Shown: in pieces, positions 9,415-29,534 of the stretch
How positions within the stretch are numbered: position 1 is the first letter of the stretch
How the letters are laid out: every line of letters starts with the position of its first letter
DNA from: an uncultured Opitutia bacterium
GTDB lineage: Bacteria; Verrucomicrobiota; Verrucomicrobiia; Opitutales; Opitutaceae
DNA: 34,431 nt
Assembly: GCA_903940425.1 (NCBI GenBank)
Contig: CAJAKX010000066.1
Location: 1 to 34,431 of the forward strand
Direction of reading: 5' to 3'
Translations under genes and position numbers: made by a program
Notes under the pieces: generated by a model
Databases searched by the model: none
Seen by the model: only the letters and a program-made list of their open reading frames with translations
Told to the model about the DNA's origin: nothing

Positions 9415-12221
9415 TGGCTGCGTGCCGTTCCAATCTGGCGAAGTTAAGCGGACACGCCGCGCCATACGTGGGCGAGGTACTGCTGGCAGGGCTGGTGCTG
9501 TTCGCCGCCGATGCTTTCTTGCACCTGCGGCTCGCTGGCCCGCAGTTTCTAGCCTGTCTCGCCCCTTGGCCGGTTTGTCTTCTGGCCGGGCGCCTGCTGC
9601 GCAGGCGAAAAGTGCGCGGGTGGCCGGTGCATTTGCTCGACCTGGTTCTGCCGGGTCCGTTGTTGAACGAATTGGCGATCCGTTCCGGATGCCAATGGTC
9701 GCTGGCCCAAATGGTGTATGTGGTGATCGTCGTGGCGATGCTGGTGCTCGTCTGGCGCCGGTGGCTCGCCGGAGTGGGCCTCCATGGTGTCCGACCGGGG
9801 GAGGAGGCGCTGCGGTTGCTGCTGGCTGGCGGTGCGGCCGTGTGGGTGACGCTGCCGTTCTTCACCGATCGATTTCTCGGCGGCACCGACGCACGCTGGT
9901 ATGCCTATATGTTCAAGGATTTCCTGGACCAGTGGCGGGCGGGCATCTTTCCGGTATTTGTGGGACAGGGTGAGTTCGCCTTCAATGGCGGGGTGCATCC
10001 CTTCCGCTCGGCCCCCTTCCATTTCTATCTTGGTTGGTTGTGGGATATCTTCACCACGGGAGCCCTGTCGTCCGTGGCGCTCCAGCATCTGACCGTCATC
10101 ACCAGCGCCCTGGGTGGCGCGGTCGGCTTCTATTATGCGCTGACCCAATTAACCCCCGACCGCCGTTGGTCGGCGGCTGCGGTGGCGGTCATTTACGTGA
10201 CCTGCCCCGGCCTGCTCCTGCCGCTGTACAGCGCGGACATGTATATGACCTATATGGCAGTCGGTGTGATGCCGCTCGTAATTTATGGCAATGGGCGTCT
10301 TTTGTCGGGTGATGGCTGCGTCGGTTATCCCGCGTTGGCAGCCGGGCTGGCGCTCCTCTGGACCTGCCATCCACCCGTGGCATTGTTGACCACGCTCGCG
10401 ACCGTCGTGGCCCAAGGGGGCAGATTCCTGTTCGCAACGCAGTCGCGCAAAGCTTGGCGGGCTGCGGCGGGCGGAGCGGTGCTCTTTGCCCTGCTTGCGG
10501 CCTACTATTTCTATTCAATGTCCGAACTGCCTCCATCGGCGGGCACGCCAGCGCGCGGCAGCTTGATTCAGATGGCCGGCTTGGGATTATGGCTGTGGGG
10601 TGTGACCCGCGGCCTGGTCTGGAGGCGGTGGGCGGCGGCTTGGCTGTTGCTGCCAGGGGGCGGGTTGCTCTACGTAACGCAACCGGCCTGGTTCTGGTGC
10701 GGTCTGCTGCAGGCTTTGCTGGCTGCAATCGTGGCGTGGCAGGTACACCGGCGGGGATGGTTTGATCTCCGGCGCTGGTCCGGGGCGGTGGTGATTGCGA
10801 CAGGCTTGCTAGCCACCCTGCTGATTCCGCTGGTTTGGGGCGATCAGGGGGCTGGCCGAAACATGACAACCCTCGCCGGGCTGGCGCAAAATGCCGCGGT
10901 ATTTGGAAATTACCTTCGTCCGCTTTCGCCGGGCGTGATGAGACCGGGAGACTGCCAGCCCGGTTTGGGCATCTGGATGCTGCTCGTGGTGGGGGCGGTG
11001 GCGGCGCTGGCAGGGCGTTCGCTCGCCGCACGATTACTGTGGTTTCCCGCCGCGTTGCTGGCGCTGGCAGTGTTTCGTGTGCCGGGGCTGAGCGATTTCT
11101 TCGTGGCGTATTTCCCGCGGCGTCTCGCGGAAATTGCCGGTCTTCCGTTGGACCTGCGGTTGATGCCCGTGGTGGCGACATTTGCCTGCGTGGCAGGGCA
11201 CATTGGCCTGTCCTGTCTGCCAGGAGAACGGGCATGGTCGCAGCGGGCGATTTTGGCCGTCGTCGGCCTGCTGGCAGTCTGGGGCGTGTGGGAGGCGCGC
11301 AAATTCGTCTCCCGAGGGTGGGCGATCACCGCTTCACGCACCCAAACAGCCATGTTTTTCCGCGCCGAAAATGCGGTGCTCGACCGGTATGCTTACGATT
11401 TGCTGACGATTCCCGCCTATTTTTCCAACGGCAAGACTGATGGTCGGTTGGAGAATCGCCTTTTGGATGCGAAGCGAGGACTTCTGGTTGGACCCGATAC
11501 CATCGCCCGGCGAATGGAACAGGCGGGCGCGGAAACGCTCCTGTTAACCACCCGAATCGATCCGACCGCTTATGCCTGGCTGAACATCGAGCCGGCGCTG
11601 ATCATCCAGCCTGGGGAACACCGTTTGCTGCGATTTGAATTCCCGGATAAGATTTACCACGGCTATTTGATCCTGAAAAGTGAGCACGGTTATCGGGATT
11701 ATATCTTTCCTGACTCCGGCAACACCCAGGCCTTCGGCGTCGGGCCGGGCTGTTCCAAGGTTCTTTCGCTATGGAATTCCGGCGAGACAGCGGAAACGGT
11801 AAATCTGATGTTCCAGCGTATCGGGACGTTTGGACCGGATTCCGAATTTGGCGATTTTGGGCGGGTAACACTCTCGCATTATGATCCGAAGCGCTCACCG
11901 GTCCGGATTGTTTCGTGGATACCCTACCGTGCCGAAGTGGAGATAGAGAAGCCGGGCTTCCTCGAGACTCCGCGGGTCCTCTTGCCGGGTTACGTGGCCA
12001 CGGTGGACGGTCGGCCGGCCAAGGTGCAGGATTCGCCACAGCATTTGGCCATGGTCCCGCTCACCAGCGGACGGCACATTGTCGAATTGCACTTCGTCGG
12101 CTCCACCAGACTTTGGACAGCCTGGTGGCTGAGTACCCTCACATGGGCCGGTCTCCTTGGCTGGTCGGCACTGAGCAAGTTTCAAATTCCGCAGCTATGG
12201 CAGAGGCAACCGGAAAACTGA
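9411..12221 (+). CDS. Large polytopic membrane protein (family B, YfhO/GT-C-like)
   Basis: FFTDRFLGGTDARWYAYMFKDFLDQWRAGIFPVFVGQGEFAFNGGVHPFRSAPFHFYLG, and C-terminal WIPYRAEVEIEKPGFLETPRVLLPGYVATVDGRPAKVQDSPQHLAMVPLTSGRHIVELHFVG; both shared with the minus-strand CDSs at 22019 and 26829. Confidence 0.75.
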   Translation: MMAACRSNLAKLSGHAAPYVGEVLLAGLVLFAADAFLHLRLAGPQFLACLAPWPVCLLAGRLLRRRKVRGWPVHLLDLVLPGPLLNELAIRSGCQWSLAQMVYVVIVVAMLVLVWRRWLAGVGLHGVRPGEEALRLLLAGGAAVWVTLPFFTDRFLGGTDARWYAYMFKDFLDQWRAGIFPVFVGQGEFAFNGGVHPFRSAPFHFYLGWLWDIFTTGALSSVALQHLTVITSALGGAVGFYYALTQLTPDRRWSAAAVAVIYVTCPGLLLPLYSADMYMTYMAVGVMPLVIYGNGRLLSGDGCVGYPALAAGLALLWTCHPPVALLTTLATVVAQGGRFLFATQSRKAWRAAAGGAVLFALLAAYYFYSMSELPPSAGTPARGSLIQMAGLGLWLWGVTRGLVWRRWAAAWLLLPGGGLLYVTQPAWFWCGLLQALLAAIVAWQVHRRGWFDLRRWSGAVVIATGLLATLLIPLVWGDQGAGRNMTTLAGLAQNAAVFGNYLRPLSPGVMRPGDCQPGLGIWMLLVVGAVAALAGRSLAARLLWFPAALLALAVFRVPGLSDFFVAYFPRRLAEIAGLPLDLRLMPVVATFACVAGHIGLSCLPGERAWSQRAILAVVGLLAVWGVWEARKFVSRGWAITASRTQTAMFFRAENAVLDRYAYDLLTIPAYFSNGKTDGRLENRLLDAKRGLLVGPDTIARRMEQAGAETLLLTTRIDPTAYAWLNIEPALIIQPGEHRLLRFEFPDKIYHGYLILKSEHGYRDYIFPDSGNTQAFGVGPGCSKVLSLWNSGETAETVNLMFQRIGTFGPDSEFGDFGRVTLSHYDPKRSPVRIVSWIPYRAEVEIEKPGFLETPRVLLPGYVATVDGRPAKVQDSPQHLAMVPLTSGRHIVELHFVGSTRLWTAWWLSTLTWAGLLGWSALSKFQIPQLWQRQPEN

Positions 12222-15097
12222 TTGGGCCGGCGGGTCGCGGCCGGCGCTCAGCGCGATATCTTGAAGGAGGCCTGACGCTGGTGATCGCCGCTGCCGTGGT
12301 GGTTTTCTACGTATGGACGGTACGGTCAAACGGGGGTGATTTCTCGTTCAGCGGGAAAAAGCAGGACTACTACAATCTGCTGGCAGACGGATTTCTTGAC
12401 GGACACCTCTACATGAAGGTGGGAGGGGCACCCGGGGCGACCGACTCGAATCAGCTCCCGCCAGGGGCGCCGTTCCTGCTCGATGCGTCGTATTACCACG
12501 GAAACTACTACCTTTATTTCGGCGTCACGCCGGCAGTAACGGTGTTTTTGCCCTATGCCTGGCTGACGGGGCAGGACTTGCCCCAAGCATATGTGGCCGT
12601 GTTGTTCGCCGCCATGGGTTTTGCGCTGAGCTTGGCATGGCTGCGGGTGATCCGGCAGGGGTTTTTTCAGCAGGCGGGCATGGGAATCTGGCTCATCTTG
12701 GTCGCCGCACTTGGGCTTTGCAGCGTGGCACCGGCGGCATTGCGACGGCCGTTGTTTTACGAAGTGGCCATCATGTCGGGCTATGCATGGGGATCCGCTT
12801 GTCTTTTGTTCGCAACGCTCGCAGTGCTGTGGCGCGAGCGGGCGGGAAGATGGCTGGTGGCGGCGGGTTTGTCTGCCGGGCTGGCGGTTGGTTCGCGGGC
12901 GAATCTGCTGCCAGGGACGCTGGTGATCCTGCCACTGGCCGTGGCTTGGATCCTATGGCGCGATCGCCGTGGGACGCGTGGTGCACAATGGCGCCGCGCG
13001 GCACGGTTGGTGATGGCGGGGGGATTGCCGATGGCCTGCTGTCTGACAGCCCTGCTCTGGTACAACCATGCCCGCTTTGGGAACGTATTTGAGTTCGGCC
13101 ACCGCTATCAACTCGGTTCAAATCCTGCCGGATTTCCATCCTCTCCGGCGTTTTTCTGGAACAATCTTAAGATTTATTACCTGACCCCTCCCGACACCGG
13201 TTGGTATTTTCCGTTTTTTTCGCCGGGGCCGGAGGGTTCACCGCCGGCTGGGTATTGGGGTGTCGAGCAGGCCCACGGCCAGTTTTTCCACCTGCCCTTC
13301 ATCATCGCCTTGCTGGCGGCTGGGGCGGTCAGCATACGGCGACGGCGTGCGCTGCCGACGGGGCTGGGCATGGCGGTCATGATGACCACAGTGTGGTTTG
13401 CGGTTAACTTCGCGATCGTGGCTTCATTCGGGGTGCGCACCAACCGTTACATGCTTGATTTTCATCCGGCGCTCCTCGCCTTGACGGGGATGATGCTCCT
13501 GGCGGGTGCGCAGGCGGCCGCCGCGGGCTGGCGCTGGCTGGCGCGCGGCGGGGCGGCGTGGCTCGGTGTGATTTGCGCCTACAACGTATTCATCAGCCTC
13601 CAGGTGCACGCCTTTTTCCAGGAGAACAACCCCGCGGCTTACGCAGCTCTCGGCCGGATCTGCGACCGGCTCGGGTGGCCGCTGCAACGTATGTCCGGGT
13701 CGAAGCCCGGCCCGATTGAGCTTGAGGTAACCTTTCCCGACGGCCACCCGGGCCGGTTCGAACCCTTGGTGGTCGCTGGGACTGCCGACTATTCGGATGT
13801 GGTATTGGTCGAATACACCCGTCCTGGCTTTGCCAGGCTCGTACTTGATCATCAACCCTACGGCCGCATGAGCGGCGGGGAATTCGCCTTGGAGCCCGGC
13901 CGCATCCGGCGGCTCAGCGTTCATCTGGGAACGCTGCTTCCGCCGGCGTGGCATCCTTGGTGGGGAACGCTGGATGAGGCGCGGGCCCAGCGATTACGAA
14001 ATCGGGTGCGCGTGGCGCTGGACGGTCGCGACCTGCTGGCCCTCGATGCACCTTGTTTCGAGGCTTCCCCGAATCAGGTCAGGCTGGGCAAGCGGGAAAG
14101 GTCATTGCCAGGGGAGGACGATTTCTCAGGGCGGGTGCAATTGGCCGGGCTGCTCGGACCTGATCTTGCATGGCTTGACCAACTAGCCGGCCAGTGCGGT
14201 CCCGTACGGTTGCGGGTGGAACTGCCCCGTGATCGTTACGGCGAAGTGGAGCCACTCTTGGTTTTTCAATACGGCAACCAGTATGACGCTCTGCTCGTGA
14301 CTTATCTCGATGAGTCCACCATCCAGCTGAGTTTTCAACACGTCAGGGGTCTCATCGTGCGATCCGAGCCGATCCGCGTTGATTACACCCGGCCGCATGA
14401 GCTCGAAGTGTCCCTGGAGGCTTTGCGGTGCCGACCGCGGTCCAGCCCGGTGCCGCATCAGACGCTGCGAGTCTTGCTGGACGGCAGAACCGTCCTATTC
14501 GCCACGGTCAACTGGCACGACGTGGCATCCTTCCAAATCTATGCCGCTTGCTCGCCCATACCTTTCTCAGTCTGCCGGCGTTTATTTGGTGGACAAGTGC
14601 TGGCGGTGTCCCGCCGGATGCGCGTGGATCACGGATATGATGAGCCCTTCAAGGAATTGCCGGGACCGCTCTGCTTGCATCTGCGGCTGCCACTCAGGCG
14701 AACCGGGATTGCGGAACCTCTGGTCACCACCGGTGTAACCGGGCGCGGCGACGGTCTCTATGTGCGTTACGTCAGCGAGACGGCCGTGGTTGTCGGCTTT
14801 GATCACTGGGGCTTTGGCAACGTCGAGTCCGTGCCTATTCCAGTCAACTACGATGCCGAGCAAACGTTCTGGATATCGTTCGGCGGATTGCTTCCAGCCG
14901 GTCACCCGGAGGCAGAGCGAGTCCTGATCAAGCTCAACGGCACCGTGGTGTTGAATCAACCGTTTGGTTTCAACCTGACGGCGCCCGAACAGATCGTGAT
15001 TGGCGAAAACCCGATCGGGCTCTCGACAGCACAAACGGTCTTTACGGGGGATGTTTTTTCGGTGGAGGCCGGAGTGCCTGACGTCAGTCCGCGTTGA
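12197..15097 (+). CDS. Polytopic membrane protein, GT-C-like (family A), with three C-terminal repeat modules
   Basis: ORF begins at a GTG at 11915 inside the upstream gene; ATG at 12197 (MAEATGKL) is the likely start. KKQDYYNLLADGFLDGHLYMKV...LLDASYYHGNYYLYFGVTPAVTVFLPYAWLTG. Confidence 0.8.
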   Translation: MAEATGKLIGPAGRGRRSARYLEGGLTLVIAAAVVVFYVWTVRSNGGDFSFSGKKQDYYNLLADGFLDGHLYMKVGGAPGATDSNQLPPGAPFLLDASYYHGNYYLYFGVTPAVTVFLPYAWLTGQDLPQAYVAVLFAAMGFALSLAWLRVIRQGFFQQAGMGIWLILVAALGLCSVAPAALRRPLFYEVAIMSGYAWGSACLLFATLAVLWRERAGRWLVAAGLSAGLAVGSRANLLPGTLVILPLAVAWILWRDRRGTRGAQWRRAARLVMAGGLPMACCLTALLWYNHARFGNVFEFGHRYQLGSNPAGFPSSPAFFWNNLKIYYLTPPDTGWYFPFFSPGPEGSPPAGYWGVEQAHGQFFHLPFIIALLAAGAVSIRRRRALPTGLGMAVMMTTVWFAVNFAIVASFGVRTNRYMLDFHPALLALTGMMLLAGAQAAAAGWRWLARGGAAWLGVICAYNVFISLQVHAFFQENNPAAYAALGRICDRLGWPLQRMSGSKPGPIELEVTFPDGHPGRFEPLVVAGTADYSDVVLVEYTRPGFARLVLDHQPYGRMSGGEFALEPGRIRRLSVHLGTLLPPAWHPWWGTLDEARAQRLRNRVRVALDGRDLLALDAPCFEASPNQVRLGKRERSLPGEDDFSGRVQLAGLLGPDLAWLDQLAGQCGPVRLRVELPRDRYGEVEPLLVFQYGNQYDALLVTYLDESTIQLSFQHVRGLIVRSEPIRVDYTRPHELEVSLEALRCRPRSSPVPHQTLRVLLDGRTVLFATVNWHDVASFQIYAACSPIPFSVCRRLFGGQVLAVSRRMRVDHGYDEPFKELPGPLCLHLRLPLRRTGIAEPLVTTGVTGRGDGLYVRYVSETAVVVGFDHWGFGNVESVPIPVNYDAEQTFWISFGGLLPAGHPEAERVLIKLNGTVVLNQPFGFNLTAPEQIVIGENPIGLSTAQTVFTGDVFSVEAGVPDVSPR
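13709..14155 (+). repeat. C-terminal repeat module, copy 1 of 3
   Basis: GPIELEVTFPDGHPGRFEPLVVAGTADYSDVVLVEYTRPGFARLVLDHQPYGRMSGGEF...HPWWGTL...VRVALDGRDLL. Confidence 0.75.
14198..14625 (+). repeat. C-terminal repeat module, copy 2 of 3 (divergent)
   Basis: GPVRLRVELPRDRYGEVEPLLVFQYGNQYDALLVTYLDESTIQLSFQHVRGLIVRSEPIRVDYTRPHELEVSLEAL...LRVLLDGRTVLFA. Confidence 0.75.
14663..15085 (+). repeat. C-terminal repeat module, copy 3 of 3
   Basis: GPLCLHLRLPLRRTGIAEPLVTTGVTGRGDGLYVRYVSETAVVVGFDHWGFGNVESVPIPVNYDAEQTFWISFGGLLPAGHPEAERVLIKLNGTVVLNQ...IVIGENPIGLSTAQTVFTGDVFSVE. Confidence 0.85.
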
Positions 15098-17664: not shown

Positions 17665-18255
17665 TTATTTCTTCACGCGCTCCACGGCGTAATCAGGGAG
17701 GATGGTGGGTGCCTCGTCGCGCTGCTCGGGTGTGTGGTCCAGAATCCAAAATGCATCGAGGCGAGGATAGCGGCGTTCCGCCTCATTGATGAACAGAATT
17801 TCGAAGGTGATGTGCGTGCCGCGGCGGCTGGTTTCTCGGCGCACCGAGATGATCTTGAAACGGTCACCGATGCGCGCGAGGTCCAGGATGCGCACCTCCG
17901 GCAGAGCGGCGCCGACATATTGGGGCGATACTTCGGCGGGCAGCGCGGGAACACTCATGACGGAACCGGGGGCGTTGGCTCCGACGAGCGGCCACTCGGT
18001 GTTATGGCGCTTGAATTTGAAGATGTAGCAATCCCGCTGGAAGATAAACTCCCGGCCGGGGAGCTGGTTGTATTGGGGCAGACCGTTGACGTAGGCGGTC
18101 TTGGTCGAATTGAGCTGCCAGTAAACAAACCCGATCAGCAACACCGCGGCGGCAGCGGCGATGATCCATTTCATAAGCAGAAAGAAAAAACGGGTTACAG
18201 GGGGATGGCGATGACTTTTCTCGGAGCGGACAGAGCTGAACGAAGGGCGATTCAT
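17665..18255 (-). CDS. Small single-TM membrane protein of unknown function
   Basis: Start at 18255 (MNRPSFSSVRSEKSHRHPPVTRFFFLLMKWIIAAAAAVLLIGFVYWQL) or 18174 (MKWII). One TM followed by a soluble domain (LPGREFIFQRDCYIFKFKRHNTEW...). Confidence 0.6.
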   Translation of the reverse strand: MNRPSFSSVRSEKSHRHPPVTRFFFLLMKWIIAAAAAVLLIGFVYWQLNSTKTAYVNGLPQYNQLPGREFIFQRDCYIFKFKRHNTEWPLVGANAPGSVMSVPALPAEVSPQYVGAALPEVRILDLARIGDRFKIISVRRETSRRGTHITFEILFINEAERRYPRLDAFWILDHTPEQRDEAPTILPDYAVERVKK

Positions 18256-18259
18256 GTCA
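18146..18259. repeat. Direct repeat, left copy (5' end of the 17665-18255 gene)
   Basis: gcggcggcagcggcgatgatccatttcataagcagaaagaaaaaacgggttac..gatgacttttctcgg...gcgattcatgtca matches 21914-22021 in the same orientation. Confidence 0.75.
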
Positions 18260-18575
18260 GCTACACTTCGGGATGAGACTTTATACAGGAACAGGAGCTT
18301 TAGCTTGGTCCGCAAGCCAGCCCGCATTGGTTAAGCGGGCGACATGCAGGGATTTGGTGCGGAACGATTGCCGTGCCGCGAGCACATCGGTCTCCAGCGG
18401 TCCGAGTTTTCATCGATTATGGCTCCGCTCGTCGCCCAGAGTGGTCTGATAGATGCGGGAACAAGGGCCTAGCGGGCTAAGCTGCTGACACGGGTGAACA
18501 TGCGGCGTTTCGTGTTTTTCTTTGGCGATGGGAAAAAGCTCGCGATGACCAGACGTCGCTGGTTCCTCTAAGCTT

Positions 18576-21458
18576 ATGTTGTCGGTAAGTGATAGCGCCG
18601 GAGCCAGGGGCGGGATGAGTACTGATGATCGGCTGGCCCGGTGGATGAACCGCATCGCAATTGTTGGCGTGCTGTGCATTTACGCCTTCTTTTTGGTCGG
18701 AAGGGGACAGCCTCTTTGCTCGCCGAAGGCGATGGGGCATTATCAGTACCTGACGGAAGCGCTACTGTCCGGCCAAACATATTTCAAGGTCCAGCCCGAT
18801 CCAGCGTTGGCCGGATTGGATAATCCCTATGCCGGCGCGCAGGGAGTGCCTCGATTGCACGACGCCACCTACTTCAAGGGACGCTACTACCTATATTTCG
18901 GCGTGACGCCCGTTTTGTTATTACTGGGGCCTTGGACGCTCGTCACCGGCAGTTATCTGACTGATTCTGCAGCCGTGCTGGTTTTCTGTTCGGGCGGCTT
19001 CTTGGTTTCCGTTGCTATCTGGAGTGAATTGCGTCGCCGGTCGTTACCGAGCCTAAAAGGTCTTGCGCCGGCATTCGGCACGATCGTTCTCGGGTTGGGC
19101 AATTACATCATCATTCTCATGGTGGGGGTGCAGTTTTATCAGGTTGCGAACGCAGCCGCGTATTTCTGCCTGATGGTGGCATTCTGGTGCGTCCTGAGAC
19201 TGTCAGCTGCGCCATCAGCCTGTCAGCAGGATCTCTGGATGGCTTTGGCATCTGCCTTCTGGGGGTTGCTCGTGGGATCACGACCAAACCTCGTGGCCAG
19301 CCTGCCTGTTTTGGGCGCAGTCGCTCTGTTTCTCGTTGGGAAGCGCGGTTGCCACGATGGATGGCGCCGGGTGCGAACGTGGTCCATTCTCGCTGCGGCA
19401 ATGGCTCCGGCTTTTCTGATCGGCTGTGGACTTGCCGCCTATAACTACGCTCGATTTCAGGATCCTTTCGAGTTTGGAATCCACTATCAATTTGCTGCGG
19501 GGGATCTGCGCCATGTGAAGCTGGCTGGACTTCGGTTCATCCCTGGGAACCTCGCCAGCTATCTATTCACGCCCTGCCGATACCATCCGTACTTTCCTTT
19601 TGTGGAGTTGTTTGGGCCAGCCTTCGGCGTTCTGACTTGGGCGCCGTTTTCGGTCTTTGTTTTGTTTTTCCCGCTCAGCCTGCTGCTCCTGGAGGCCAGG
19701 AGGAACTGGCCTTGGTTTTTGGTGGGATTGACCGTCAGCTCCGCAGCGCTTTTATGTTTTGCGAGCTTGCTGGTGTATACAGGCCCCGTCGGCCGTTACG
19801 CGCTGGATTTTCTGCCGGCGGCAACGTTGGGTTCGGTGCTCTTCTGGGGTGCGGCCGTCGCTCGGGGCGAGTATTCCCGCGGGTGGCGCACAGTAGCCGT
19901 CATTGGAGGAATGGCAGCGATTTTTTCAATGGCGCACGCACTTTTGTTCACGCTGCCCTCTCAGCCGGAATCCGTGGGATTTTCACGCCTCGCGCGACTG
20001 TTGGACTATCCATCGAGCATCTGGGATAGGATTGCCGGGACCAGGTATGGACCGATAGTGGGTGAAATCAGATTTCAAGAACAACCTGCCGGAACTTGGG
20101 AGCCTTTGGTGGCCACGGGCGGAGGGCGTGACGTGTTGTTCATCGAACATCGGGGCGAAAATATGATCCGGTTCGGCTTCTTTCATTTGGGCACGCAATC
20201 CCCATTCGGGGAGGAGCTTTCGTATATGCCGAACCACGTTTACAAATTTCAGTTCTCTCTCGGCTCGTTATATCCACCCATGGAACATCCGGTGTTTTCC
20301 AAGACGCCTCCGGCCATCGCGCGGGCTCTCCGGCGGGGCGTCGAAGTCACTCTGGATGGCGCCGTTGTGTATCGTGCGTTTTCTGATTTCTACGTCTCCA
20401 ATCCTGGGCAGGTTCTTGTTGGTGCGAACCCTTCCGGGGTTGGGACAACCCCCCGGTTTTCAGGGCAACTGACAATCGCCGGAAGAAAGGGCGTGCCACC
20501 GATCAGTCAGTTTCAGAATGGCGGCAGCTATGGACCGGTGCGCCTTACGCTGCGGTTCCCGGAGTTTAGAGGCGCGGTCGGAGAACCACTCATTAGCACG
20601 GGGCCAAGGCGGGAGGGGGATCTCGTGTTTGTGTATTACCTGCGACCGGGGAAAATGCGACTGGGGGTAGACTCGGCACATGGCGGAGCTGCGGAAACAC
20701 GGGAGCTTTCCTATGATCCGGCCATCGATCATGTGCTGGATGTGGATCTCCCGCCACTCCACCCGGGTCCCGCTGAGGCAACACCGAAAGCCTTTGAATT
20801 GCGATTCGATGGCCAAGTGGTGATGCGGCTGAAGCGGCGTTTTGCAGCCACGAGTTCAGTCGATACGGTTTTCGGTTATAACGCGGTTCTTTCGACGGCG
20901 GCGGCTGCCTCGTTCACCGGACCGAAACTCCAAATCAGCCCGATTACGCTCGCTCCGTCGCCGTTGAGCCTGGAACCCGCATGGGGACCCATACGGCTTA
21001 TCCTCATGCTGCCGGCCAACCGAATCGGCGCTCAGGAACCGCTGGTCGTCACGGGCAAGTCTGGTGCCGGTGATTTCGCATATATCGTCTACGCGGATCC
21101 CCAGCACATTCGGATTGGCTACGACCACTGGGGGGTGGGAGGAATCCTCAGCGATCCAGTTCCAATAGATTACGGGAAGATCAATGCCTTTGAGGTCAGC
21201 GTGGGTTCGCTCTACCCGGACCTCTCAGATCCTTGGTGGAGTCGTCAAAATAGCCAAGTGAATCCGCAGGCAAAACGAACCGTCTGGGTCAAAGTGAACG
21301 ACCGGGTGGTCCTCAACCAAGGTTATGATGCATATCCGTCGTCGTTGGATCAAATTGTGCCATGCAAAAACCCTATCGGAGGATCGAGTTGCGAGTCCGC
21401 ATTCACGGGCATGCTTCAGGAAGTCGAGCACTGCCCGGTGTCGGAAGAATTGAAATAA
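18576..21458 (+). CDS. Polytopic membrane protein, GT-C-like (family A), with three C-terminal repeat modules
   Basis: Start at 18576 or 18615 (MSTDD). GHYQYLTEALLSGQTYFKV...RLHDATYFKGRYYLYFGVTPVLLLLGPWTLVTG; paralogous to the CDSs at 522, 6436 and 12197. Confidence 0.8.
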   Translation: MLSVSDSAGARGGMSTDDRLARWMNRIAIVGVLCIYAFFLVGRGQPLCSPKAMGHYQYLTEALLSGQTYFKVQPDPALAGLDNPYAGAQGVPRLHDATYFKGRYYLYFGVTPVLLLLGPWTLVTGSYLTDSAAVLVFCSGGFLVSVAIWSELRRRSLPSLKGLAPAFGTIVLGLGNYIIILMVGVQFYQVANAAAYFCLMVAFWCVLRLSAAPSACQQDLWMALASAFWGLLVGSRPNLVASLPVLGAVALFLVGKRGCHDGWRRVRTWSILAAAMAPAFLIGCGLAAYNYARFQDPFEFGIHYQFAAGDLRHVKLAGLRFIPGNLASYLFTPCRYHPYFPFVELFGPAFGVLTWAPFSVFVLFFPLSLLLLEARRNWPWFLVGLTVSSAALLCFASLLVYTGPVGRYALDFLPAATLGSVLFWGAAVARGEYSRGWRTVAVIGGMAAIFSMAHALLFTLPSQPESVGFSRLARLLDYPSSIWDRIAGTRYGPIVGEIRFQEQPAGTWEPLVATGGGRDVLFIEHRGENMIRFGFFHLGTQSPFGEELSYMPNHVYKFQFSLGSLYPPMEHPVFSKTPPAIARALRRGVEVTLDGAVVYRAFSDFYVSNPGQVLVGANPSGVGTTPRFSGQLTIAGRKGVPPISQFQNGGSYGPVRLTLRFPEFRGAVGEPLISTGPRREGDLVFVYYLRPGKMRLGVDSAHGGAAETRELSYDPAIDHVLDVDLPPLHPGPAEATPKAFELRFDGQVVMRLKRRFAATSSVDTVFGYNAVLSTAAAASFTGPKLQISPITLAPSPLSLEPAWGPIRLILMLPANRIGAQEPLVVTGKSGAGDFAYIVYADPQHIRIGYDHWGVGGILSDPVPIDYGKINAFEVSVGSLYPDLSDPWWSRQNSQVNPQAKRTVWVKVNDRVVLNQGYDAYPSSLDQIVPCKNPIGGSSCESAFTGMLQEVEHCPVSEELK
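20049..20490 (+). repeat. C-terminal repeat module, copy 1 of 3
   Basis: GPIVGEIRFQEQPAGTWEPLVATGGGRDVLFIEHRGENMIRFGFFHLGTQSPFGEELSY...FSLGSLYPPMEHPVFSK...VEVTLDGAVVYRAFSDF. Confidence 0.8.
20532..20945 (+). repeat. C-terminal repeat module, copy 2 of 3 (divergent)
   Basis: GPVRLTLRFPEFRGAVGEPLISTGPRREGDLVFVYYLRPGKMRLGVDSAHGGAAETRELSYD...FELRFDGQVVMRL...VFGYNAVLS...ASFTG. Confidence 0.75.
20985..21440 (+). repeat. C-terminal repeat module, copy 3 of 3
   Basis: GPIRLILMLPANRIGAQEPLVVTGKSGAGDFAYIVYADPQHIRIGYDHWGVGGILSDPVPIDYGKINAFEVSVGSLYPDLSDPWW...VWVKVNDRVVLNQ...IGGSSCESAFTGML. Confidence 0.85.
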
Positions 21459-21649
21459 ACTGGTCCGGTGGGTTGTCTGACTCCACTCCGTTACGTGGTT
21501 GGGAAATATCCAAGATGACCCGGATCGGGTAAATCGAGTCTGACCGGCTAGGCCGGTGCCTGCCGTCAGAACGTCTGTGGCATCAATTTCTCCGCTGCAG
21601 ACGACGTTGCGGTGAGGCAAAAATCGCGGTTAAGTCCGCCGCATCTGGC

Positions 21650-21925
21650 AGATCCAGCGATTGGTTTCGATCCAGCGGAGGGTTGGGAGGATGCCCTGCT
21701 CAATGGGGAGCTTCGGTTTCCAGCCGGTGGCCTGGATTTTCCGCAATGTCGCGGGAAGATGAAGGGATTGTCACCGATTCAGCCACGATTGCCGCCGCTA
21801 TGGCGTAGCTGGAGTCTGAAGCCAAGGGCACCGCAGATGTAACGCACCGAGTCGTTTACCCGCGCCTATGCCGGCGTGCTCAAATTGCAGATTTGCGTGC
21901 GGTGTTTCGCCTTGGCGGTGGCAGC
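21650..21925 (-). pseudogene. Decayed C-terminal fragment of the NAD-dependent epimerase (copy of about 24979-25252)
   Basis: Direct nucleotide match, e.g. gatccagcgattgg..tccagcggagggttg, gagcttcggtttccagccggtgg.ctggatttt, cgcaccgagtcgttta, cagatttgcgtgcggtgtttcgccttggcgg. Indel near 21740 disrupts the frame. Confidence 0.85.
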
Positions 21926-22021
21926 GGCGATGATCCATTTTATAAACAAAAAGAAGTACGGGTTACCGGGGATGACTTTTCTCGATGGATATGGAGACGA
22001 CCGGGGGACGATTCTACGTCA
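21914..22021 (-). pseudogene. Decayed 5' end of the small membrane gene (copy of about 18146-18259)
   Basis: Reverse complement reads TAG AAT CGT CCC CCG GTC GTC TCC ATA TCC ATC GAG AAA AGT CAT (NRPPVVSISIEKSH) against MNRPSFSSVRSEKSH, with ATG changed to TAG and an indel, then ...AAATGGATCATCGCCGCTGCC shared. Confidence 0.8.
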
Positions 22022-24925
22022 CATGGTCGAAAATGGCCCCTTTGGAGCATCGGCGGAATACCGTACGCCAACCCGAAATGTCGCCGCTCCCAAGCCAAGC
22101 ATGCTGGTCATTGATATCCAAAACAGAGCCACGAGTCCTCGTGGGGGCCGGTAGCTGAGCTCAACGGTGCAATCACCAGCCGGCACTGCAATACAAACGA
22201 GCCCTTCGGGGGATCGGCATACCGAAGCCGGTACACGGTTTACCACCGCGGTATAGCCGGTCTGATACATGCGAGGTGTTTCGAGCCAGGCGGCTGTCTG
22301 ACTGCGAACCCGCGCACGGTAAGGCACCCACGACTCGACGCGAACCGGCAGTGCCGTCTGCTCGTAAGTGAGGAGTCGTGTATGGATAAGCGGCTCGAGT
22401 GCTTCCAGCTTGCCCGCCTCGGGCGCCGGATAGAACCGCACAGTCAGTCTTTCGGCGGCGGGCGCCGTCGTCCACAATGAGAGCCACGGTGCATGCCGGC
22501 CACCCACCCCGAAGGAACCCGGCTCGCCGTACTCAGGCAGCGCGTATTCGCGGAAAAAACTGCGGCCAGCGAGCTGCAGCACGCCGAGGGTGCTCGCGGG
22601 CTTGAGAAACTCGCAGACCAGCAGGTAGCGCCGGCCCGGCTCGAGCGTGAGCGGCACGGTCAGCTCAAGCCACCTGTTCCCTTTGAGAACGGCGCGATCA
22701 AAATATCCGGTGCTGATTTCGCGGCCCGCGGCCAGCGCGGCAGAGGAATTGGTGGTGAGCGGGGCGAAAGTATCGCGCGCCAGCAGGCGGTGCTCCATCT
22801 GCGGATCCATCACCCCATGGGAGAACGTGTCGGGCAGCCGTGGGAAGATGAGATAGGAGAAACGCGTGATGCTGACGTTCTCGGGACGGAGCAGGTTAGT
22901 GGCGCTTTCGGGGGGACGCATGAGCAGACGCGAGCCCTCGGCGAACTTTGCCGCTTCAGCCAGACTCCATCCGCAGCCAACGGCAACGAGCACCGCCAGG
23001 ATCCGGCTGCGGCGCGGTTCATCGAGCAATCCGCGAGCCACCATCGTCGCGGCGCCGAAGATAACCGTGCTGGCCAGCACGAGGTAGAGACGATTCATTA
23101 CCCAGTTGCCGGTGGGATTGCGAATAAAGGCTGGCACGGCGTTCCATAGCACGAAGTCGAGGCCGGGCAGGGGTGTGAGCAGCATAGCCAGGAGGGCGGC
23201 GGCGCCGAGCATGACACGGACTTCAAGCTGGGGCGTGCGACGCAGTTGCCATAGACAGAAAATCAGCACGCCCCACAGCGCGTAGCCGAGTTGAAAATCT
23301 CCTAACAGCCGGCCGAACGGACTCAGGGGCAGGAATACGGCCGGTAATACTTCGCGAAGAAAATGCACGATGGTACCCGACGTGGCCACCTGAAAGCCGG
23401 AGGCCTTGACGCCGGGTTCGGGCGGAAAGAGCAACACTGAACCCACGGGATAGGCCGAGACGGCCAGGAACACAACGGCCCCAGCGGTCAGGTGGAGCCA
23501 GCCGCGGCCGTGCGGACGTTGCGCGGCAACACGGGCAAGCTGCATGGCACCGGCGAGGAGCGTCATCCACAGCGCAATGGGTGAATGTCCCCACCAGCAG
23601 AGGCCGAGCGAACCGCCGAGCAGGAGCAGCGGTCCAAGCGCCCCGCCGTCGCGAAATGAGCGTACCGTGGCAAACCATACCAATGGCACGCACGGTAGCG
23701 TAGTCCACGACATGAAGAGGTCGGTGTTATAGGCGATGCCCAGCACGCCCGGGCAACTCAGATAGAGCCCGGCAAGCCCGGCGGCGAGCCAGCGTCGCCC
23801 GGGCAGCAATGCCCCGAGACTGAAAAAGGCCGAGAAAATGGCACCGACGCCGAGGAGCGTGATCAGCAGGTTTTGCAACGCCAAAACGCCGAGCGTATGC
23901 ATGGTCAGCGTATCCAGCAGTACCCCGAGATAGTGAAAGGCCGGTGCGATCCGCAGCGGGTAGATTGCTCCATTGAACTGGTACAAGCTCTGGCCGAGCC
24001 AGACGGGAAACACCCCGGCACGCGTCTGCGCAACCATGTCGGCGAGCATGGTGCCATACCACAACGCGTCGCCGGTGCCATGCAGGGTGTAGCGGGCGAA
24101 GCCTCGCATGAGCCACAGGGCTGAGATCAAAAGCAATCCCCAGCGCACATTCTCCGCGAAAACGTCCGTTCTTTTTCTTGTGGTTATGCGCAGCAACGCG
24201 CGGTGAGCCGCCAAAGCGAGGATGCTCCACCCCAATACGACCAGATGGACAGGACTTGGATGGAAGCCAGCACCGGTCCCCAAGGCTGGCATGCCCACAA
24301 CCAAGGCGGCCACTGCCCAGCCAGCGGCTTGGTGCGCCAAGTCGAGCCAGTAGCTCGGTGCGGGCCGATGCCAGTGGCCCAAGGCACGCAGCATCGGCCA
24401 CACCGCAGTGATGATGCCAGGCAGCCAGAAATTGGGCCAAAAATCCGGCCAAAAACTGTTCGCCACATGGCACGCGGCACCAATGATTGATGCTTCGACG
24501 ACAAGAATATCCCAGCGGCGGATGACGGCCGCCCGTTGCAGCCAGTTCCAAGCATTGAGCAGCCAAAGCATCTTGGCCCACGGCAGGCGCGCAAGCAGGG
24601 TCGCTGCGACCCAGAGGGGTATGAAGGAAAGAACGGTTAAAGGAAGCGCGAGCCACCAGCTCAGTAATACGCCGGTCGCAATGCCCACCGTCAATTGCCA
24701 CGGCAGCCTTGTGCACCAGCGCGCGAGCGGACTGGCCTCAGGAACGGTGTGCCGGGCAGGCACCAACAGGGCGATGGCCAGGGCCGCGCATGGCGCCTTC
24801 CAACCAAGTTGGATAGTGGCGGCGAGATGATCCACCGTCTCGGCCGCGAGTAGCAGCAACAAGAGATCGATGACAGCATGCCGCTCCCTCCTCAGCCAAT
24901 CATTCAACCTTTGGAGCGGACTCAT
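22019..24925 (-). CDS. Large polytopic membrane protein (family B, YfhO/GT-C-like)
   Basis: GTGDALWYGTMLADMVAQTRAGVFPVWLGQSLYQFNGAIYPLRIAPAFHYLG, SCPGVLGIAYNTDLFMSW, and C-terminal ESWVPYRARVRSQTAAWLETPRMYQTGYTAVVNRVPASVCRSPEGLVCIAVPAGDCTVELSYRPP, matching the CDSs at 9411 and 26829. Confidence 0.8.
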   Translation of the reverse strand: MSPLQRLNDWLRRERHAVIDLLLLLLAAETVDHLAATIQLGWKAPCAALAIALLVPARHTVPEASPLARWCTRLPWQLTVGIATGVLLSWWLALPLTVLSFIPLWVAATLLARLPWAKMLWLLNAWNWLQRAAVIRRWDILVVEASIIGAACHVANSFWPDFWPNFWLPGIITAVWPMLRALGHWHRPAPSYWLDLAHQAAGWAVAALVVGMPALGTGAGFHPSPVHLVVLGWSILALAAHRALLRITTRKRTDVFAENVRWGLLLISALWLMRGFARYTLHGTGDALWYGTMLADMVAQTRAGVFPVWLGQSLYQFNGAIYPLRIAPAFHYLGVLLDTLTMHTLGVLALQNLLITLLGVGAIFSAFFSLGALLPGRRWLAAGLAGLYLSCPGVLGIAYNTDLFMSWTTLPCVPLVWFATVRSFRDGGALGPLLLLGGSLGLCWWGHSPIALWMTLLAGAMQLARVAAQRPHGRGWLHLTAGAVVFLAVSAYPVGSVLLFPPEPGVKASGFQVATSGTIVHFLREVLPAVFLPLSPFGRLLGDFQLGYALWGVLIFCLWQLRRTPQLEVRVMLGAAALLAMLLTPLPGLDFVLWNAVPAFIRNPTGNWVMNRLYLVLASTVIFGAATMVARGLLDEPRRSRILAVLVAVGCGWSLAEAAKFAEGSRLLMRPPESATNLLRPENVSITRFSYLIFPRLPDTFSHGVMDPQMEHRLLARDTFAPLTTNSSAALAAGREISTGYFDRAVLKGNRWLELTVPLTLEPGRRYLLVCEFLKPASTLGVLQLAGRSFFREYALPEYGEPGSFGVGGRHAPWLSLWTTAPAAERLTVRFYPAPEAGKLEALEPLIHTRLLTYEQTALPVRVESWVPYRARVRSQTAAWLETPRMYQTGYTAVVNRVPASVCRSPEGLVCIAVPAGDCTVELSYRPPRGLVALFWISMTSMLGLGAATFRVGVRYSADAPKGPFSTM

Positions 24926-24954
24926 CGGAGGGAGTACCGGGGAAGGGACCGGGC

Positions 24955-25935
24955 TTACTTCCCCTTCCGCGTTTCGTAGATCCAGCGATTGGCTTCCAAC
25001 CAGCGGAGGGTTGCAAGGATTCCTTGCTCGATGGTGAGCTTCGGTTTCCAGCCGGTGGTCTGGATTTTCTTCGTGTCGAGGAAGATGAAGGGATTGTCGC
25101 CGATCCAGCCACGAGCGCCGCCGGTGTGACGGAGCTCAGGCTTGAGGCCAAGCGCGCCGCAGATGCAACGCACCGAGTCGTTTACGTGCACAAATTCCGG
25201 CGTGCCGAGATTGTAGATTTGCGTGCGGTGTTTCGCCTTGGCGGCGGCGGCGAGACGGATGACGTGCAGCATGGCATCGACGCAATCGTGCACGTAGAGA
25301 TAGCTCTTGCGTTGGGTCCCATCCCCCAGGATGCGCAGCCACGCCGGATGTGCGAGGAGCTGCTGGTAGAAATCGAACACGTGGCCATGGGTGTAGCGTT
25401 CGCCCACGATGGAGACAAAGCGGAAGATATACCCCTCGAACCCGAAACCCTCTCCATAAGCGGCAATCAGGCCCTCGCCGGCCAGCTTCGACGCGCCATA
25501 CAGCGAGGTCTGGATGGGGAACGGCGCATCCTCGGGCGTGGGAATAACGGGGGCCTCGCCATAGATGGAACCGGTCGAGGCGAAGGCGAGCCGCTTGATG
25601 CCGTTGGCGCGCATCGCCTCCAAGACGTTGAAGGTGGCGAGGGTGTTTTGGTCGAAGTCCTTGCGCGGATTTTCGGTGCCGAAGCGCACGTCGGCGTTGG
25701 CGGCGAGATGAAAAACGAAATCGCAACCCTTCATCGCCGTCGTGAGCGCCGGCAGGTCGAGGTTGTCGCCGCGCACAAAGGTGAAGCGCGGCTGCGCGAG
25801 TGCGCCTTCAAGAAAACGCTTCTGCCCGGTGGCGAAATTGTCCCAGCCGACGACGGCGAGGCCGTCCGCGAGCAGGCGGTCGGTCAGATGGGAACCGATA
25901 AAACCGGCGGCGCCGGTCACGAAGACTTTTTGCAT
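24955..25935 (-). CDS. NAD-dependent epimerase/dehydratase (extended SDR, UDP-sugar epimerase-like)
   Basis: MQKVFVTGAAGFIGSHLTDRLL (GxxGxxG), VFHLAANADV, STGSIYGE, SLYGASKLAGEG (YxxxK), SYLYVHDCVDAMLHV. Confidence 0.92.
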   Translation of the reverse strand: MQKVFVTGAAGFIGSHLTDRLLADGLAVVGWDNFATGQKRFLEGALAQPRFTFVRGDNLDLPALTTAMKGCDFVFHLAANADVRFGTENPRKDFDQNTLATFNVLEAMRANGIKRLAFASTGSIYGEAPVIPTPEDAPFPIQTSLYGASKLAGEGLIAAYGEGFGFEGYIFRFVSIVGERYTHGHVFDFYQQLLAHPAWLRILGDGTQRKSYLYVHDCVDAMLHVIRLAAAAKAKHRTQIYNLGTPEFVHVNDSVRCICGALGLKPELRHTGGARGWIGDNPFIFLDTKKIQTTGWKPKLTIEQGILATLRWLEANRWIYETRKGK

Positions 25936-26828: not shown

Positions 26829-29534
26829 TCAAGGCCGGACCGGTCCGCGATGGACATCGAGGATTGTGCCGGTGAAGCGTATGCCGGCATTGGAGCCGCC
26901 AATGCGATTCTCTCCTACGGTGATCTCGGAAAGCGTGGTGTCATATTGCTGCACGGTTTCGTTGAGCACCATCCGGCCGTCAAGGACGACGCGCAGCTGC
27001 TGGCGCAGGGCCTCACGCTCCGCAGGCGGCAGTGCCCGCACCGCGGGATGATCCGGCGGATAGAGTGCGCCCGTCGAAATCTCGATCTGATGCACCGCAT
27101 AGTAATCAACTTCGACCGGTTCGGAGAGTTTGCCGAGCAAGCCCCAGACATCGGTGCCGATGCGCAGATGCCGTGGATCATCGTAGCGTACGTAGACAAA
27201 GGTCCCCGCGTGTGGTTTGCCGGTGACAACCAGCGGTTGCGAACCCTGCCAAAAGTCGCGCGGGAAAATGACCTTCATGACGATCGGTCCCACCGCGGCG
27301 CGCTGGCGCTGCCAGGCTCCTGCCGCCCAGACCGCCGCCGTGATCGCGGTTGCCACGCCCAGCAACCACCATTTGATCCTCCACAGCTTCCGGCCAACGG
27401 CGAAGCTGGACACGCGTATGCTTTTCCGCCCACGCGCGGGCAGGACAAGCCAGCCGCCCACTGCGCACCAGCCCGCACAGGTCAGCCAGAACGCCGTGCG
27501 CAGCAGTCGTGGCCCGACATAGCGCACCTCCACCCGGCTCTCACCGGCGGGCACCGGCAGCAGCACCAGCGCGTCGGGCGAGGCCTGCACATGAACCGGC
27601 CGGCCGTCGACTGTCGCGCGATAGCCATCAAGGAACATGCGCGGCACCTCCAGGTAGCCGGCGCTTTCCGCGCGCACCCGGGCGCGCAGCGGCACGAGCG
27701 ATTCCACCACGACTGGCAGCCGGTCGGGCGCGACGGCGTCCAGCTTGAAACTGGCGAACTGCATGCGGGACTGGCTTTCAATGCCGGTGGCGACGAGGTG
27801 CAGCTCGACCTCCTCGGGCTCCTGGCCCGTTGTCCACAGGAACAGCGAGCGGTTGTTGCCCGGTTGCATGCCGAAGGCGTGCGGCTGGCCGGCGGCGGGC
27901 AGGGGATATTGCCGGAAGAAAGTGCGGCCCCGCAACTGCAGAAGCATCGTCTGGGACGGCGCCTTGAAGTCGAGGGTGAGCCGGTAACGGAGTCCGGACT
28001 GCAGGAGCAGCCGCGGGGTCAGGATGAGCCGGTCGGCATCGGTCTCCGCAACCCGCAACGTACCGCTGGCAACCATTTCGCCAAAGGGAGCGGCCCCGTT
28101 GGCGATCACCTCATGGGCGTCAAACGGCGCGCGCAGCCGGAACTCCATGAGGGGATCCATGACACCGTTGGCGAACCAGGGCGGGGGGTCGAACAACGCA
28201 TAGGAGATCAAGGTCAGGTTGACGTTTTCAGGCCGGTGGGTGCGGGCCGAAACCGCCGCATCGAGATGCGAGCTGAATCCGCGCACCACGAAACGCAGGG
28301 ACTGCCAGCCGGTCCAGAGCATCGCGGCGACCGTGACGAAGATGGCAACTTCGCGGAGAAAGCCGGTGATTGGCCGGGCCGGAGGCCGCCACACAAGGGC
28401 AAACGCAAAAATGGCGAGGGCCGTGACCAGCAGATAAAAGCGCTGCATCGGCCACTGGTTGGTCAGGGTGACGGCGAGGGTGGGCAGCTTATCCCACAAC
28501 CACGCCTGCACGCCCGGCACCGGCAACGTCAACGCGAGGAAAAAAGCGCTGCTGACGACCAGGGCCAGCGCCAGCACCTGGCGCCGCCAGAGGGCGAGGC
28601 CGGTCGCGATTGCAAGGAGCGCCCAATAAAGATAACCCAGTTGGAAGTCGCCCAGCTGGCCGGCATCCGCGCTCACCGGCGCCAGCGCCGTGGCGGCCAC
28701 CCGATGCGTCTCGAAGAGCAGCAGTTGCACATCCTTGACGTGGGTCATGCTGGCGTAGCCGCTCACCGTGAGCGCCGATACGAAGGCATAGCCGGTCAGC
28801 ACCGCAAACAGCAGGCCCGCATTGGCGGCCGGCAGCAGCATTCGGCGGCGCTGGTCTCCGGTCACGAGGACGACCAGGCCCGCCGGCAGCGTGACGATGG
28901 TCAACCAGAATGCCACCGGGGGATGGGCCAGCCAGGTGGCCCCCAGTCCGATCGCGACCTGGGCCAGGGCGCCGAACGTGGCCTCCCGCTGTGCCCGCAC
29001 CAGCCCGCCGAGCACCAGCGGGATCCACGGCACGGTCATGACGGTCATGTAGAGATCCATGGTGTAAGCCGTGGAAAGCAGGCCGGGCGAAAGTCCGTAA
29101 GCGGCGGCCAGAAGCGCGGCGGTGCGGTCGCCCAGTCCAGGCACGGCGCGGCGCAAACAGAAATAGCAGCTGAGGACTCCGCCGAGCAGGCTCAGGCCAA
29201 CGACCAGGTTCTGCAGGGTCCAGAAATCGAGGGTATGAAAAGTCACCAAGTCGAGCAGGCCGGCCGCGTAGGGGAAATAGGGTGCCGTACGCAGCGGGTG
29301 AATGCGACCGTTCCAGGCGTAGTCACTCTGGCCGACCAACACTGGAAACTCGCCCGCGCGCACTTGGGTGACGAAATCGGCCACGGCGAGGCTGTAGTTG
29401 TAGGCCTCACTCGTGCCCAGGCCGCGATTGGTGAAAAAGGGCGCGGCGATAAACAACCCCGCGGCGAGCACGATGCCCAGGCTGCGTCCCCGGGTGGCGG
29501 CCCATGATTGCAGGGAGGCGAGCGGCGAGGTCAT
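26829..29534 (-). CDS. Large polytopic membrane protein (family B) with one C-terminal repeat module of the family-A type (chimera)
   Basis: N-terminal FFTNRGLGTSEAYNYSLAVADFVTQVRAGEFPVLVGQSDYAWNGRIHPLRTAPYFPYAAG; family-B beta region ESLVPLRARVRAESAGYLEVPRMFLDGYRATVDGRPVHVQASPDALVLLPVPAGESRVEVRYVGP; then one more TM and a repeat module. Confidence 0.85.
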   Translation of the reverse strand: MTSPLASLQSWAATRGRSLGIVLAAGLFIAAPFFTNRGLGTSEAYNYSLAVADFVTQVRAGEFPVLVGQSDYAWNGRIHPLRTAPYFPYAAGLLDLVTFHTLDFWTLQNLVVGLSLLGGVLSCYFCLRRAVPGLGDRTAALLAAAYGLSPGLLSTAYTMDLYMTVMTVPWIPLVLGGLVRAQREATFGALAQVAIGLGATWLAHPPVAFWLTIVTLPAGLVVLVTGDQRRRMLLPAANAGLLFAVLTGYAFVSALTVSGYASMTHVKDVQLLLFETHRVAATALAPVSADAGQLGDFQLGYLYWALLAIATGLALWRRQVLALALVVSSAFFLALTLPVPGVQAWLWDKLPTLAVTLTNQWPMQRFYLLVTALAIFAFALVWRPPARPITGFLREVAIFVTVAAMLWTGWQSLRFVVRGFSSHLDAAVSARTHRPENVNLTLISYALFDPPPWFANGVMDPLMEFRLRAPFDAHEVIANGAAPFGEMVASGTLRVAETDADRLILTPRLLLQSGLRYRLTLDFKAPSQTMLLQLRGRTFFRQYPLPAAGQPHAFGMQPGNNRSLFLWTTGQEPEEVELHLVATGIESQSRMQFASFKLDAVAPDRLPVVVESLVPLRARVRAESAGYLEVPRMFLDGYRATVDGRPVHVQASPDALVLLPVPAGESRVEVRYVGPRLLRTAFWLTCAGWCAVGGWLVLPARGRKSIRVSSFAVGRKLWRIKWWLLGVATAITAAVWAAGAWQRQRAAVGPIVMKVIFPRDFWQGSQPLVVTGKPHAGTFVYVRYDDPRHLRIGTDVWGLLGKLSEPVEVDYYAVHQIEISTGALYPPDHPAVRALPPAEREALRQQLRVVLDGRMVLNETVQQYDTTLSEITVGENRIGGSNAGIRFTGTILDVHRGPVRP
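26838..27290 (-). repeat. C-terminal repeat module, single copy
   Basis: GPIVMKVIFPRDFWQGSQPLVVTGKPHAGTFVYVRYDDPRHLRIGTDVWGLLGKLSEPVEVDYYAVHQIEISTGALYPPDHPAV...LRVVLDGRMVLNETVQQYDTTLSEITVGENRIGGSNAGIRFTGTILDVHRG. Confidence 0.88.

Follow-up and report, generated by a model that had tools for sequence, protein, structure and literature searches.

Additive insertion of genes, with one homologous and one illegitimate end, has been proposed for the T6SS effector/immunity arrays of Vibrio cholerae (PMC5361080), and homology-facilitated illegitimate recombination is reported in E. coli conjugation (PMC3240628). In Streptococcus pneumoniae, merodiploidy results from tandem duplication, either spontaneous or by transformation, and small duplications without flanking repeats are formed too (PMC3784515). 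The galactose-initiated O-antigen clusters of Salmonella contain gene remnants, mostly inactivated wzy genes and pieces of insertion elements (PMC3715488).

The locus presented here lies in a stretch of 34,431 nt from an uncultured Opitutia bacterium, referred to as the window, and features a seam between two gene fragments that is a new example, in Opitutia, of a kind of event already known in bacteria. As in the V. cholerae arrays (PMC5361080) and in E. coli conjugation (PMC3240628), a conserved region would have served as homologous anchor for one end, the other end being joined without real homology, and the older genes would now lie further downstream, after the orphaned 3′ part of a gene. 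Here, by contrast, the genes involved probably belong to a surface-sugar cluster of Opitutia, the event is reconstructed solely from sequence, and the orphan is the tail of an epimerase gene fused to the start of the gene at the far boundary. A hybrid junction where neighbouring copies of a region meet is also what pneumococcal tandem duplication produces; however, the pneumococcal duplications hold two copies of the same genes (PMC3784515), while the second interval here is without a copy of the membrane-protein gene B. Interchangeable central genes and leftover fragments at recombination junctions are shared with the Salmonella O-antigen clusters (PMC3715488), in contrast with whose remnants the fragment described here is a two-parent fusion, with B placed between direct copies of the epimerase tail.

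Structure and decay of the scar

The fragment, hereafter the scar, consists of ~375 bases of dead DNA adjoining the gene of family B. Its parts and the principal genes around it are as follows.

21639..21926, minus strand: decayed direct copy of the epimerase 3′ end (parent 24967-25252; BLASTN, 83% over 288 nt, E ~1e-80), with stops and indels
21915..22014, minus strand: decayed direct copy of the small-gene leader and first codons (parent 18146-18253; BLASTN, 78 nt at 81%, E ~1e-14)
21915..21926, no strand assigned: junction, a 12-nt GC tract common to both parents, where the two matches overlap
22019..24925, minus strand: gene of family B (product of 968 aa, a large predicted membrane protein); the gene is a mosaic when compared with the sister genome G060
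24955..25935, minus strand: intact epimerase (NAD-dependent epimerase/dehydratase; PF01370, E 3.7e-51), parent of the tail copy
17665..18174, minus strand: intact small gene, 169 aa with a hydrophobic N-terminus, parent of the start copy and conserved boundary of the interval
18576..21458, plus strand: gene of family A (product of 960 aa, likewise a large predicted membrane protein), between the scar and the small gene

A preliminary description of this DNA had placed a copy of the epimerase tail beside a copy of the small-gene start. A repeat search within the window finds these direct repeats independently, with coordinates within ~12 nt of those given before: 21639-21741 matches 24967-25069 at 86% and 21754-21926 matches 25080-25252 at 83%, while the small-gene copy is 90% identical in its inner 41 nt (21915-21955 against 18146-18186) and 70% identical in its outer 47 nt (21968-22014 against 18207-18253). 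The pairwise similarity is significant, the best score of the scar being 292 bits compared with at most 30 bits in 100 shuffles. The join at a shared GC tract is likewise borne out, as the two matches overlap in the 12 nt of 21915-21926, where the parents differ by one base. The small-gene start is joined to the epimerase tail in direct orientation, such that the downstream end of the unit is fused to its upstream end. Elsewhere in the assembly from which the window is taken (459 contigs), a search for further copies of the scar returned only chance matches. A ‘relic TGA’ at 18257-18259, which had been aligned with the stop codon of B, was set aside; similarity in this stretch is ~60–70%, the two codons line up only if one is moved by a base, and the B gene of the sister species stops, by eye, at a different codon.

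On the minus strand, the small-gene start runs on in frame into the epimerase tail, so that the scar reads as a fusion. The window copy has lost its start codon (ATG changed to ATA at 21943), contains TAG and TGA stops and is broken by indels in its 3′ half. The differences between the scar and the intact window epimerase are spread evenly over the three codon positions (12:14:18), whereas a coding comparison of orthologous epimerases gives 24:3:75 (p = 1e-6), indicating that the window scar has decayed neutrally; the same flat distribution would follow plain duplication or conversion, and hence cannot show allelic divergence at the time of joining. With its frame disrupted and its substitutions flat over codon positions, the window fusion is a pseudogene.

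The surrounding locus

The neighbouring genes are of the nucleotide-sugar type: an epimerase/dehydratase, a DegT aminotransferase, an SDR protein, a Gfo/Idh/MocA oxidoreductase, a nucleotidyltransferase, a GHMP kinase and a methyltransferase. From established knowledge of these families, we take this to be, probably, a surface-polysaccharide locus. Families A and B have no Pfam or NCBIfam match, and B is also without a PDB sequence match. The plus-strand family-A gene, with a GC content of 0.57 compared with 0.62 for the window, was considered as an inverted or decayed B and rejected, being a member of another family, which has further members both in other parts of the window and in other genomes. 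The proteins of families A and B2 (window 11915-15097, 18576-21458, 26829-29534 and 6436-9414) carry C-terminal modules of ~150 residues in varying copy number; these modules cross-match one another and have no assigned Pfam family. A motif resembling AAAAnCnTCGCCAA, seen by eye ~35–50 nt upstream of the small gene (window ~18205-18225), recurs in most relatives within small-gene leaders that are otherwise unalike, and is possibly a promoter or regulatory element.

In eleven genomes, the distance from the epimerase to the small gene (window 18174-24955) ranges over 0.25–9.5 kb, from 247 bp in G062 to 9.5 kb in G060. The content differs in every relative that keeps both boundary genes, and several encode large membrane proteins of type A or B, on one strand or the other. 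In G030, the order is epimerase, B-like gene, opposed A-like gene and small gene, without a scar, and the genes between the scar and the small gene are wholly different in the window and in G060. The interval is thus a hypervariable gene-shuffling site across this family of Verrucomicrobiota, and an opposed A gene beside B needs no special history. In another relative, G131 (L024:15773-16366), a B-like C-terminal stretch matching residues 499–696 of B2 lies 13 bp from the epimerase end; it may be what is left of another B gene that was replaced.

The same junction in a sister species

Comparison with a sister genome, which the preliminary description had proposed, reveals the same junction. 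G060 (PLMW01000057.1, ‘Opitutia bacterium isolate fen_1467’, a MAG) represents a sister species and has this junction at the same place, in the order methyltransferase, epimerase, B, scar that is also seen in the window. Its fusion is undamaged, with an open frame of 104 codons. A protein search of 252 genomes of the family detects two adjacent epimerase tails only in the window genome (G000) and G060, and a DNA search of all 6 genomes of the genus gives the same two; a contig scan with B returned the G060 record alone. The scar is absent from G125, the third close relative in which the region is complete. G180 was rejected as a further case, since its two epimerase copies are on separate contigs, each beside its own SDR gene. 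Self-BLAST of other loci found no similar flank-duplication scars. The SDR gene of G060 (L021:7833-8556) matches in two overlapping frames (residues 1–176 and 192–274), which suggests a frameshift or an assembly error. The leader of the G060 scar is 95% like that of the window small gene, while the leader of G060's own small gene is unrelated; the background in which the seam arose therefore seems to have been of the window type.

The divergence between the two species is uneven across the locus. At fourfold sites it is 0.20 in B, compared with 0.34 in the epimerase (Fisher p = 0.0007), 0.30 in SDR and 0.54 in DegT, and the third-position difference is 0.11 in the first 120 codons of B compared with 0.33 in the epimerase (p = 1e-6). 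Within B (window 22019-24925 against L021:15711-18611), a ~98% block with sharp borders at ~23460-24100 alternates with ~70% blocks at ~22820-23400 and ~24180-24500, a mosaic that lies beyond all 5000 permutations, although in draft assemblies, one of them a MAG, such blocks could partly be assembly chimeras. The scar of G060 is itself mosaic. In nt 683–824 of the tail it shares 19 sites with the window epimerase and 9 with its own, in nt 865–954 it shares 0 and 20, respectively, and a run of 100 nt (nt 862–961) is identical to its own epimerase; this switch in parentage inside the epimerase tail has a Fisher p = 5e-7 (computed with 20:9 in place of 19:9). Both scars carry one scar-specific change, a Tyr to Cys codon at tail nt 721. 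The divergence between the species falls at ~24975 of the window, where the identical run of G060 ends. This drop fits a homologous crossover at the end of the G060 epimerase, which would belong to a later transfer and not to the first join. These patterns are evidence of a transfer of the B-scar unit between species, which the preliminary description did not foresee.

Proposed origin and movement of the unit

The explanation that we prefer, and on which our judgement is evenly balanced, is that the scar is a dead recombination seam in the hypervariable interval, in which two haplotypes were joined at a microhomology, the resulting unit then spreading by homologous recombination. Donor DNA with the order epimerase, B, small gene would have joined a resident haplotype in which other genes lay between the epimerase and the small gene, through homologous recombination in the epimerase and an illegitimate join, at the GC-rich microhomology, of the start of the donor small gene with the resident epimerase tail. 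B would have been added beside the resident genes without replacing them, and the fused small-gene start and epimerase tail would have remained. An end at a few bases of microhomology, as is characteristic of homology-facilitated illegitimate recombination, is what is found. As for a net gain of DNA beside retained resident genes, the intervals hold different genes from genome to genome and B appears to have been transferred, the resident state that it joined being a presumed one.

With a direct copy of the epimerase tail on either side of B, ordinary homologous recombination could bring the unit into another epimerase gene or remove it. Judging from the tracts described above, the unit (epimerase end, B, small-gene start and epimerase tail) may have crossed between the window lineage and G060. 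The patterns fit a donor unit that entered the native epimerase tail of G060 through a homologous crossover at each end; the native sequence lying between these crossovers would then be present twice. Subsequently, the fusion decayed to a pseudogene in the window, whereas the G060 frame is open to this day. We put forward only tentatively the stronger proposal that the illegitimate junction made a self-sufficient cassette, a large membrane-protein gene between direct copies of its conserved neighbour's 3′ end, which could be gained or lost at the locus of any relative by RecA recombination without an integrase or transposase and so moved between the window lineage and G060. Against the preferred explanation, the homogenised tract in G060 could also be produced by gene conversion after vertical inheritance, and the shared change at nt 721 also fits common descent. 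The epimerase tail is short, with limited phylogenetic signal, and the comparison is based on the sequences of two scar-bearing genomes, both draft assemblies.

It is quite possible, if short of probable, that the scar predates the species split and was inherited vertically, with later conversion between scar and epimerase and strain-level recombination of B; in that case no cassette moved between the species, however the junction had formed. Both species share the position and flanking order of the scar and the scar-specific substitution at nt 721, and the epimerase upstream of the tail has diverged like other genes. At odds with this history, silent-site divergence is significantly lower in B, and in the bases just beyond the end of the epimerase, than in the surrounding genes, and part of B is 98% identical between the species. 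The preliminary description had proposed instead a tandem duplication within one chromosome, by microhomology, of a unit of epimerase tail, B and small-gene start, after which the second B was lost and its place taken, through recombination in the flanks, by the plus-strand gene. We consider this rather unlikely. The junction geometry is exactly head-to-tail, and the window scar differs from its parent in the flat, neutral pattern that a once-identical duplicate would show; the part of the claim that survives is a fusion of small-gene start and epimerase tail in head-to-tail order, duplicating the epimerase-to-small-gene interval. A second B in the unit is unsupported. Duplication of such a unit predicts a scar tail running into the epimerase-B spacer and a second B, but neither scar enters this conserved spacer; both lose homology to the B side at the last codons or stop of the epimerase and have a different C-terminus, with codons for RR at the end in place of the RKGK of both B-linked epimerases. 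Searches between the scar and the small gene, by tblastn with three B proteins and by blastn with the epimerase-B region, detect no B relic beyond chance in the window or G060. Replacement of a lost B by the opposed gene finds no footing either, given the different interval genes of every relative and the scarless arrangement of G030. Duplication followed by replacement is possible at the cost of an extra event, swapping B for unrelated genes that differ in the two species.

That the fusion is a working small gene appears improbable. The intact G060 frame behind a 95% conserved small-gene leader speaks for it; however, the 3′ part of that frame (nt 862–961) is identical to its parent and hence recently homogenised, so that the open frame is weak evidence of selection, the product would be without the NAD-binding part of the epimerase, and the fusion is dead in the window. 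An assembly artefact, in which repeats or related strains were joined by the assembler, is more improbable still. Both genomes invite the suspicion, G000 being in 459 contigs and PLMW01000057.1 being named a MAG, but they are separate, come from different species and share the junction, and stops and indels of its own have built up in the window copy; one junction with different later damage makes misassembly unlikely.

What is unusual in this locus is that the seam is common to two species and that a cargo gene is left between direct repeats. Such seams are rarely preserved, and one present in two species is a trace of a way in which variable genes of surface-sugar clusters can be added and not swapped. 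If the preferred explanation is true, a single microhomology accident would leave a gene between direct repeats, and its later gain or loss by normal recombination would be easy.
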